Assembly (NCBI RefSeq): GCF_003641145.1
Contig: NZ_CP032744.1
Location: forward strand, 2,046,001-2,110,000
Reading direction: 5' to 3'
DNA from: Lactiplantibacillus paraplantarum
GTDB taxonomy: Bacteria; Bacillota; Bacilli; Lactobacillales; Lactobacillaceae
Length of the DNA stretch: 64,000 nucleotides
The position numbers and the translations under genes are program-made. A model generated the notes under the pieces. It worked only from the letters and a program-made list of their open reading frames with translations, did no database searches and was not told where the DNA came from. Of the stretch, positions 10,068 through 56,836 are shown piece by piece (the first letter of the stretch is position 1; every line of letters begins with the position of its first letter).

Positions 10068-10442
10068 TTTTGCCATCATGTTTTAACCATTAGTCATTGT
10101 TAAGGGCGCCTGTGAGTTAGATTGTTATTCCTCAGCAATGATTCGGCTATTTCAACTTCCAAGACTAGGTGGCAAATGGGCTAGGCCTTGATATTAGTCC
10201 GTTGTCGTAGCAAGCACGGGGACATTAACACCAAACAAGTTGTGATTGCCACACGAATGGCTACTGAATGGCCACTACTAGCGATATCGATTGGTCGAGC
10301 AACCATCTGAACAAACGTCCAAATAGGCTTTCCAAGAACCTGCTACATTCTTAGAAAGCCCATTCACATTGCTGTTAAGAACCCAATGTTAGCTTTTTGA
10401 CTCATACCGGTTGCACTTAACAACTGTTACCACCCATGGTTA
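10068..10442 (+). other. Gene-free stretch with a repeat fragment and a stem-loop
   Basis: No convincing reading frame. Around 10190-10222 there is a ~30-bp segment (26 of 31 bases) resembling part of the structured repeat at 45.99 kb, including GTAGCAAGCAC. A stem-loop with 13-nt near-complementary arms (10326-10338 with 10348-10360, GGCTTTCC/AGAAAGCC) may help end the ABC-transporter transcript arriving on the minus strand, though it lacks a T-run. Confidence 0.4.
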
Positions 10443-12762: not shown

Positions 12763-13026
12763 AAAAAAATCGTCCTTAGGCCAAATTACCTAAGAGGACG
12801 ATTTAATCGCGGTTCCACCTCATATTCACTAGTTGCTCACACAACTAATCTCAACGAGTTTATCACTAAACTCCGCCGCTAACGAGGCCAACCGGAACAG
12901 CTTACTAACTTCAGCCATTCAACTCACAGATGTGGTTCGTTGTAAACCTTGGTTATCTTTCCATCACCGATAACTCGCTAGACAAGATCTTCACAACTAC
13001 TCTTCTGTTCCCTGTTTTTTTATGTT
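12763..13026 (-). promoter_or_regulatory. T-box leader, His specifier
   Basis: Complete T-box riboswitch on the minus strand. The Stem I base pairs GGAACAG with CTGTTCC. The specifier region reads GAA-C-CAC-A, placing CAC (His) at 12934-12932 in the same register as the Val and Met specifiers of the other two T-boxes in this window. A Stem III hairpin, the T-box GGTGGAACCGCG (12819-12808) and a terminator with arms AAATCGTCC...GGACGATTT plus T-run (12804-12763) follow. It should raise expression of the ABC transporter when tRNA-His is uncharged. Confidence 0.88.
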
Positions 13027-22240: not shown

Positions 22241-22498
22241 AAAAAAGTCCACTCATCCTATTAGACTAGGACGAATAGACTTCGCGGTACCACCTAATTT
22301 TAAAGCCATCACAAGTGATTGCTTTACAACTTAAACATCGTTGTTAACGAACGGTGTATCCCGTCCGGCTATTCCTACTAAAACAGTTCAGAATAGCAGC
22401 TCGCAAGTTACCTTCACGCTAAACCGCCAAGCGTGTCCCACTCATCACGCTCTCTCTGTTGACGTTAATTACCGCTACTCTCTTGCTCATTGCTAGTT
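22241..22498 (-). promoter_or_regulatory. T-box leader of valS, Val specifier
   Basis: The specifier region GAA-G-GTA-A puts GTA (Val) at 22411-22409. The T-box GGTGGTACCGCG is at 22294-22283, followed by a terminator (arms 22281-22267 and 22260-22246, then a T-run at 22246-22241). Specifier and downstream gene agree, which validates the register used to read the other two T-boxes. Confidence 0.95.
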
Positions 22499-22504
22499 GT
22501 CACT

Positions 22505-45580: not shown

Positions 45581-45683
45581 AATGACCTCGTAATCTCCAA
45601 TTTACCTTCTATTTTAGCATGTCAGTGCCCGTCTTGCCCAAAGGAACCCATTCAAACATAAAACGTAACGCATTGTGCTCGTT

Positions 45684-46185
45684 AATTTGGCATGAGTCAT
45701 GATTAAAACATGCCAGTTAGTTGGATTATTGTTCGTCAGCATATGCGCGTCTGGTGCCGACCTCCGGGGCTGGGTGCCAATCGCTGGAACGTAGCTGACG
45801 TCGATTTGAGCTAACGCCCAACCCGCGTCATCTCAAATACGAGTCTTATTCTAAGCCGGAAGAAATTCACTTCCAGCTAAGAATAATTTGGCTACTGAGC
45901 ATTGTCACCCAGCCCCTCCAGTCTAAAAGAGTGTTCGGGGCCACGGGTTGAAGCCGAGTATTGCCTAGCCAACGGATTAATGCGATCTTGGCATTAGTCC
46001 GTTGGTGTAGCAAGCACAGGCTTCAGTGGCCCCGAACACGTTTCGACAGCATTTCCTTGAAGCATGGAAGACCAGTATTTGAGACGTGGACTTTCGGCTC
46101 AAATCTGCATTGAAGTGCCCTACAATTAGCAGAAATGATTGGAAGCCAACGTAGGACGAACTAATCAAATGATTTTCGCCAAATT
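45684..46185. repeat. Structured interspersed repeat, copy A
   Basis: About 500 bp homologous to copy B at 56369-56761. Shared blocks in order are GCATATGCGCGTC, GGGCTGGGTGCCAAT, ATCTCAAATACGAGTCTT, GAGCATTGTCACCCAGCCCC, GGCCACGGGTT and GCAAGCACAGGCTTC. Outer ends are inverted (AATTTGGC at 45684, GCCAAATT at 46178). Internal complementarity: 45766-45781 with 45901-45916 (15/16), 45931-45944 with 46026-46039 (14/14), 45969-45982 with 45992-46005 (13/14). No credible protein is encoded. It looks like a MITE-like element or a multicopy structured RNA; class not recognised. Confidence 0.75.
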
Positions 46186-46284
46186 GCATACTTTTCAGTA
46201 GGATTCAGATGGTAGCTTTTAAACTTAGAAATGACTATTTTTAATCACGATTCATACTAAATAATAACTAGCACAATGCATAAA

Positions 46285-46364
46285 ACGTGGCCTAATTATA
46301 GCCGTTATGATGCCACCCTGAGCCTTACTCTGGTTGACATCATAACGTCCTAATTAGGCCACGT
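46285..46364 (-). terminator. Long bulged terminator hairpin after the hydroxyacid dehydrogenase gene
   Basis: Outer arms ACGTGGCCTAATTA (46285-46298) and complement (46351-46364), inner arms CGTTATGATG (46302-46311) and CATCATAACG (46338-46347); the minus strand ends in ACGTTTTATG. An 80-nt hairpin about 100 nt after the stop. Confidence 0.65.
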
Positions 46365-56072: not shown

Positions 56073-56368
56073 ATCGGTTCCTAATCATCATAACATAGAA
56101 CACTAGCGGATAAATATTACATTTTACATTTTCGTTACAATTTCAACACAAATATTAAATACTTATGATTAGTTAACTAATTAGCGAATTGCGCACGTAA
56201 TGAATTGACAACGCGTGAATAATTTGACTGATAACAGCACTCATTTGTAATCGTTTCCTTTATTGTAATCTCAATATAAGTTGCATTCTACCATTCAAGT
56301 TATCGAGTTGCCCCTAATACGCTCAGTTAATTAGTAAAATCTTGTTCGCAAGCAATTCAGTAACGACT
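56073..56368. other. AT-rich gene-free stretch upstream of murA
   Basis: About 300 bp, AT-rich, no coding frame with a ribosome site. It probably contains the murA promoter on the minus strand (TATGTTATGAT-like sequence near 56088-56101). Nothing else recognised. Confidence 0.35.
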
Positions 56369-56761
56369 ATTGTTAAAATGCAGCGATTAGTCGAGTTGTT
56401 GTTTATCAGCATGCGCGTCCGATCCGGCTTGCGGGGCTAGGTGCCAATTGCTGGAACCAGGCGGACATCGATTTGAACTCACGCAGAAAATCACGGCGCA
56501 ATTTCAAATACGAGTCTTCTGCTAGCCTAGGAACACCACCCCGACAAGAAGAACTTCCCCCTTGAGCATTGTCACCCAGCCCCGCCAATCTCAGGCTTTT
56601 GCAGGCCACGGGTTAATACCTAGTCAACGGATGGCAGTAGTCGATTGGCGTTGCAAGCACAGGCTTCCGTGGCACCGTGTACGTTTATAGGCAATTCCAC
56701 TTTTTGCCGCAGATCTAAATTGACTATACTCGACTTCGACTAATCGGCACATTTTAACAAT
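56369..56761. repeat. Structured interspersed repeat, copy B
   Basis: 393 bp bounded by inverted repeats 56369-56394 and 56736-56761 that match at 23 of 26 positions (outer end ATTGTTAAAATG, inner part CGATTAGTCGA). Same block order as copy A at 45.7 kb. The long-range stem 56433-56448 with 56568-56583 is kept, but the second stem (GGCCAC/GTGGC) is shorter than in copy A. No protein, no target duplication seen. The TIR-bounded form suggests a non-autonomous mobile element; a transposase source is not identifiable here. Confidence 0.75.
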
Positions 56762-56836
56762 GTTTTCTGCCGATACCATGATTCCATGATATGTGTTAAA
56801 GGTTTAATAGTGTGCAATATTGAATCGACAAAACAA

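Follow-up and report, generated by a model that had tools for sequence, protein, structure and literature searches.

The 64,000-nucleotide stretch of the Lactiplantibacillus paraplantarum genome analysed here (the window) carries, on its plus strand at positions 45668-46281, a non-coding element of 614 bp whose ends were placed by alignment of its terminal inverted repeats (TIRs) of about 46 bp (left TIR 45668-45714, plus strand; right TIR 46235-46281, minus strand). The element starts with ACGCATTGTGC and finishes with GCACAATGCAT, and is flanked on both sides by the direct repeat ATAAAACGT. The left copy of this repeat (45658-45666), read as a target duplication, may alternatively be taken as 8 bp with one mismatch, while the right copy (46280-46288) shares the last two bases of the aligned right TIR. 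An earlier note on this DNA had described a self-complementary, protein-free repeat with inverted ends at 45684-46185. The repeat is real and its inverted ends were recovered (45670-45684/46265-46279 plus 45685-45708/46239-46262), but the interval was too short. So far as examined it is also free of protein genes, as the sole ORF of at least 60 aa within the element is a mechanical one of 70 aa spanning the palindromes, and no transposase gene is present in the window copy. Between the element and a dehydrogenase-like gene, at 46285-46364, lies a perfect 14-bp inverted repeat around a second inverted repeat.

The window copy is an internally deleted version of an element of about 1036 bp, of which two full-length relatives (L002 and L003) occur in the same genome (G000; other G numbers denote other genomes and L numbers loci). 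The interior of a complete element holds two inverted modules of about 150 bp, each predicted to be able to fold as a three-way junction. In the window the left module (45766-45916, plus strand) matches the covariance model R1 with 169.9 bits, and its predicted fold, supported by covariation, comprises an outer helix A (45766-45781/45901-45916; 16 nt, 94% matched), a helix C arm placed by fold and alignment A1 (45797-45845) and a palindromic helix B arm (45846-45886), which R1 matches on both strands, all given on the plus strand. It is followed by a middle hairpin, M (45931-46039), recognized by inverted-repeat search and folding and aligned over 24 copies, with a perfect 14-bp base stem (45931-45944/46026-46039; 100%). 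The inverted right module persists as a remnant (46066-46160, minus strand), identified from an inverted repeat and consensus alignment; its other half falls within the internal deletion, and R1 does not match the remnant separately in the window. The three nested stems reported earlier were all found as repeats, including the perfect one, but the third (45831-45847/46068-46084; 17 nt, 88%) is read here, from the sequence, as the left module matching the inverted right-module remnant and not as a local stem. In the module consensus GGAAC and CTGAG are conserved in helix A and GTGGGCA and GCCTT at the junction, with an arm TTCTAAGC...GCTAAGAA, and modules are frequently found in convergent inverted pairs.

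The self-complementarity is beyond chance. Folded as single-stranded DNA, the module 45766-45916 reaches -39 kcal/mol compared to -16.7 (sd 2.75) for 200 shuffles (z = -8.1), the whole element gives z = -9.2 (20 shuffles), and in neither case does any shuffle fold as well as the real sequence. The homologue noticed 10 kb away proved to be a second, more decayed copy, with a left module at 56433-56583 (plus strand; R1 124.7 bits) inside a relic delimited by eye to about 56320-56800. A third, strongly decayed relic with pieces of M and its flanks was recognized by eye alone at 10080-10330 and has no match to the R1 covariance model.

In the genome as a whole 43 copies were read, 40 of them scored by DNA search and three (L048, L050 and L051) obtained via the TIR search, while R1 gives 84 matches at E <= 0.001, left and right modules being counted separately. 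In an alignment of the 40 copies about 350 consensus columns are missing from the window copy, while other copies are without M or have lost stretches of spacer. The copies are intergenic, with no evident bias of orientation relative to genes among the 38 of 40 having both neighbours called (mechanical ORFs, no significance test), and no replichore bias was seen by eye. Evidence of mobility comes from the flanks. Among 49 elements of several Lactiplantibacillus genomes with both TIRs recognizable, 11 are flanked by an exact repeat of at least 7 bp and nine of these by one of at least 8 bp, lengths that include bases shared with the TIR, whereas shuffled flanks yield a mean of 0.15 elements with a repeat of at least 7 bp (maximum two in 500 shuffles); the remaining 38 have no 7-bp flanking repeat. 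The copy L050, bounded on both sides by AGATTATT, is the one copy tested for an empty site: its flanks, split by the element in L. paraplantarum, are contiguous when joined in the sister genome G015 (positions 1-528 of 530, 95%). Two further loci are unusual in their make-up. L048 (G000 C1 2701937), of 211 bp, has a TIR at each end and a flanking repeat of 8-9 bp but no R1 match, and may have lost its module before or after insertion, while a 55-bp site with two facing TIR cores (G000 C1 958904-958958) is apparently a TIR-only mini-copy.

The ends point to insertion sequences of the IS982 family. The first 20 nt of the left TIR in the family consensus, ACGCATTGTGCTAGTTAATT, from which the window copy differs by one base, are identical to the left end of L445 in G016, a 977-bp insertion sequence with a 9-bp duplication, encountered in a TIR-core search of four genomes (G000, G012, G015 and G016). 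Its own ORF is broken into two in different frames, both matching the IS982-family transposase model NF033520, and relatives of the first are present in nine of the 21 genus genomes at E <= 1e-20. In these four genomes the TIR cores listed (at most one mismatch) form facing pairs 0.05-1.1 kb apart, as paired by eye, and among those listed and opened L445 is the only one free of modules. One of these relatives, in the own genome, is an intact 286-aa ORF on contig C4 (L469), whose protein is 48% identical to that of L445; it lies between perfect 16-bp repeats (ACCCGTTGTGCTAGTT) that have two mismatches to the ends of the element, and has no recognizable target duplication. More generally, ten of the 13 IS982 loci examined have ends of the form GTGCTAG or near it, ends of this type not being found at L466, L467 and L470, and six (L445, L465, L468, L474, L479 and L480) show a 6-9-bp duplication. 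Together with the target duplications and the empty site, these same or near-same ends make the repeat a MITE-like element of IS982 in Lactiplantibacillus, one of the two possibilities the earlier note had raised. A deletion derivative of that insertion sequence was considered and ruled out, since the full-length L002 has no BLASTN match to L445 at E 1e-4.

The other possibility raised was a family of structured RNAs, and the stems do covary strongly. Alignment A1 consists of 56 of the 135 available left modules, chosen for diversity from six Lactiplantibacillus genomes and three plasmids. Over its 53 pairs 94.0% of cells are paired (28-46% in slid controls), both sides have changed in 28 pairs (14.7 in shuffles) and 198 cells are doubly changed (54.7 in shuffles, 16-35 in slid controls). 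In A3, 143 modules (123 of them distinct) were aligned by fitting to the model, a procedure that itself favours the structure; here 95.4% of cells are paired and 48 of 53 pairs have double changes, with no excess over shuffles in further pair types (150 compared to 152.4). Searches of Rfam at gathering and relaxed thresholds produced no module match, only scores far below gathering or ribosomal leaders outside the modules.

The type of pair can separate pairing in DNA from pairing in RNA: where the stems of a genuine RNA covary, its transcribed strand often shows G.U but seldom A.C. An RNA control of this kind was prompted by two minus-strand T-box leaders in the window (22264-22499 and 12791-13021, Rfam). 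In T-boxes of the same genus (n = 30, 54% mean identity) variable pairs are G.U in 14.2% and A.C in 1.4%, whereas modules treated in the same way (n = 119, 56% identity) have 1.9% G.U and 2.4% A.C. With one module per locus at 42 loci (intended as one per genome, the genome of the ten loci L206-L215 being assigned from list order), the 44 variable pairs are 94.4% Watson-Crick, 0.9% G.U and 2.2% A.C, and all four Watson-Crick types are used at 20 of them. This count leaves out three junction-side pairs with frequent G.T, which fits a strand-specific feature. The TIR pairs, which we take as a DNA-only reference, lack asymmetry (75 G.U, 79 A.C). In module orientation the 123 distinct modules hold 91 A.C and 44 G.U among 5481 cells; four pairs account for about half of this A.C, and without them the figures are 46 and 39. 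Such an A.C surplus makes an RNA from the opposite strand with very low tolerance of G.U possible, though neither strand of the module approaches the G.U value of the T-boxes. Read on the plus strand of the own genome, the left module has 4 G.U and 25 A.C and the right module 25 and 12. The M hairpin, with 104 G.U and 37 A.C in its 24 aligned copies, is intermediate and nearer to RNA. As G.U is no commoner than A.C, pairing in the module looks conserved at the DNA level, and we read it as maintained in DNA and not in RNA. The MITE interpretation is thereby supported and the RNA interpretation weakened.

The distribution of changes over the element indicates that this pairing is preserved in copies already inserted. 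In 35 of the 40 own-genome copies (five poorly matching ones were dropped), divergence from the consensus is 1.2% at paired and 11% at unpaired columns of the left module, and 6.6% and 16% in the right module. The TIRs (about 20%) and the spacer (24%) have diverged more. For private changes alone the values are 0.40% at left paired columns, 1.2% at left unpaired columns, 1.5% for spacer and 2.3% for TIRs. Thus no part of the element is as well conserved as the paired positions of the left module, whose stems appear to be preserved after insertion while the ends decay. A comparison to G015 adds a second dimension, as ten of the 22 G015 copies examined have flanks in common with G000 copies. Ranked among the 40 by spacer and TIR, the copy at the same site comes 1, 2, 1, 1, 4, 4, 2, 1, 2 and 23 (first to fourth in nine of ten cases), while ranked by the left module it comes 35, 4, 22, 1, 15, 28, 39, 18, 20 and 14. 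The module ranks are individually noisy owing to few informative positions and variable loops, yet the contrast is large. In the pair L102/L020 the TIRs agree, yet the modules differ by an entire block of helix C with compensated changes; L105 and L027, by contrast, have identical modules. In this one species pair, modules at fixed sites are shown to be reshuffled between copies, with spacers and flanks inherited, and modules seem to exchange between sites.

Further copies are found well beyond the window and its genome. Within the genus R1 matches occur in 17 of 21 genomes, 1012 in total with at most 144 candidates scored per genome; 14 of the positive genomes have 20-142 matches each and the other three have 3-5. 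When the best candidates per genome were scored, BLASTN matched at least 36 of 397 family genomes and R1 at least 26 of 151, each in nine of 40 genera, which combined gives at least ten sampled Lactobacillaceae genera. The loci listed (at least 80) include Companilactobacillus, Lapidilactobacillus, Levilactobacillus, Pediococcus ethanolidurans, L. modestisalitolerans and L. plantarum EGD-AQ4. A class-wide scan with stricter filters and the ten best candidates per genome returned the own genome only (one of 299), and neither phages (one 631-base query) nor viral contigs (one exact pattern) gave a match. Pieces of the element are carried by plasmids of L. plantarum and Ligilactobacillus salivarius. 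In two of the latter (L041, L433) a right-half and a left-half match about 4 kb apart enclose an ABC-transporter/oxidoreductase gene cluster. On plasmids of Pediococcus acidilactici and L. reuteri (L430, L431), a lone TIR-region fragment adjoins a gene for glutamate-cysteine ligase, a hint of gene transfer out of Lactiplantibacillus; in neither of these two records, the ones opened, is the fragment part of a matching insertion sequence.

In at least one further species the modules have other ends. The IS982-type TIR was not found at 17 loci of G127, G150 and G068, where the best sites have 5-7 mismatches of 16. In G008, three of 22 loci are elements of about 380 bp ending in GGYTCTRTACYAATTGRTGT (GGYTCTRTAC...), with 13-15 of 20 positions common to both ends and 7-8-bp duplications, and in G144 one locus of 20 (L222) has a perfect 20-bp repeat, GGTTCTTTCTTAAGTTAGGT, and a 7-bp duplication. 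This evidence amounts to four loci without a shuffle control. The ends resemble, as we presume, those of the ISL3 type. Modules are hence not tied to one transposon and behave as an independent unit instead of a component of a single insertion sequence. As to local context, the modules around L246 in G150 are clustered, those of L246 itself in the order +,+,-,-, and at L231 in G144 the terminator hairpin of a gene seems, by eye, to hold the element within its loop (AAAAGCAATCTCAC ... GTGGGATTGCTTTTT). Terminator-like hairpins with a T-run and differing stems were seen by eye just after the left module in G144 (for example L222, L223, L228, L231, L232, L235, L236 and L238) and G127 (for example L248, L249, L251 and L254), and not in the copies examined of G000, G150 and G068.

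The repeat is probably a non-autonomous transposable element moved by an IS982-family transposase, with modules that act as folded DNA as its payload. In Lactiplantibacillus the transposase would move the element in trans, and with it an inverted pair of modules able to fold as three-way junctions. The module could take shape as a cruciform, or as a hairpin in DNA made single-stranded at replication or repair. Breaks or template switches at such folded DNA might then drive conversion between copies, a process that would homogenise the modules and preserve the match between the arms of every stem. Going one step further, the module itself may be an independent selfish piece of folded DNA, hitchhiking between unrelated transposon ends (of the IS982 type in one species group, of the GGTTCT type in others) and preserving itself through the recombination that its fold provokes, which would copy it from site to site. 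This reading we regard as possible but rather doubtful; the conservation of stems in fixed copies could have its source in a host function instead.

That the module is a structured non-coding RNA, transcribed and acting in trans or as a leader while the element merely spreads it, is unlikely in the light of the pair types, where G.U does not rise above A.C at an identity like that of the T-boxes. It could account for the strong covariation across many genera, the motifs conserved outside the pairs (GGAAC and CTGAG, for example), the conservation of modules in place and the G.U surplus of M. It also receives some support from G144, where by eye a -10-like TANNAT precedes the module and terminator-like hairpins follow it, and from the hairpins with T-run in G127. 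Against this, such signals were not seen in G000, G150 and G068, a sequence scan of the window copy found no more promoter-like sites than chance would give and nothing resembling a terminator, no Rfam match exceeded threshold, and the copies have no evident orientation relative to genes (without a statistical test).

We consider it quite improbable that the modules are sub-terminal sequences for transposase binding or enhancement of transposition, kept for the sake of active source copies, with inserted copies dead on arrival. The family is mobile and the inverted, convergent module pairs do resemble transposon ends, but the TIRs have diverged by about 20% compared to 1.2% in the left-module stems, a disparity repeated in the private changes (2.3% in TIRs and 1.5% in spacer against 0.40%). 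Conservation merely as part of a transposon end was rejected on the same grounds, the TIRs being far less conserved. Modules also occur with other TIR types, and L048 has TIRs and a target duplication without a module fold, although its module was possibly lost after insertion. Least probable of all is a host function at the DNA level, as a BIME/REP-like nucleoid or gyrase site or a recombination site, which would suit stems kept in place, intergenic copies and the tens of matches in most positive genomes of the genus, but not their absence from four of 21 congeneric genomes and scarcity in three more, their presence in ten genera of 40 sampled, or the lack of evident orientation bias.

Several known systems resemble the element in part. 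REP/BIME sequences, associated with RAYT, are palindromic units based on short hairpins and arranged in intergenic inverted pairs; the present units are likewise palindromic, paired and intergenic, but measure about 150 bp and have three arms. A Y1/RAYT partner was sought and rejected, Y1 being absent from the module-bearing G000, G001, G004, G007, G010 and G015 and present in G018 and G019, both without modules. ROOL, GOLLD and OLE are large structured bacterial RNAs with an elaborate conserved fold, a description the module shares, although it differs from them in lacking an Rfam match and a G.U excess and in its high copy number and transposon ends. ERIC, BOX, bcr1 and RUP are intergenic, non-autonomous and foldable and occur in tens to hundreds of copies, as does the present element, which is longer, is built of modules with two three-way junctions in inverted order, covaries in nearly pure Watson-Crick fashion and exchanges its modules from copy to copy. 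Structured interspersed repeats of these types are named in a survey (PMC2267715) from which the word plantarum is absent. MITECca01 of Cardinium cOegib is an IS982-derived MITE of about 240 bp with 169 copies, mostly intergenic (PMC9769881). It shares with the present element the lack of a transposase, IS982-like inverted ends, a high copy number and a mostly intergenic location. It is derived from its parental insertion sequence, whereas the present element reaches about 1 kb, has in L002 a full-length form unmatched to L445, and contains covarying three-way-junction modules that are found with other ends elsewhere. No published description of the repeat family was found, but subscription journals were thinly covered and it has possibly been described already.

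The finding places in lactobacilli, the food organism L. plantarum among them, a repeat family that reaches 142 model matches in a single genome of the genus, and bears on genome assembly, annotation and rearrangement in these bacteria. It also carries a caution for RNA discovery, as covariation so strong that it would usually pass for proof of an RNA is here met without a G.U excess, and the ratio of G.U to A.C offers a cheap test for separating DNA from RNA pairing. If the modules are indeed selfish, covariation on a large scale would have arisen from the structure of DNA and not of RNA. That DNA structure can drive the concerted evolution of dispersed repeats is a claim that can be tested.
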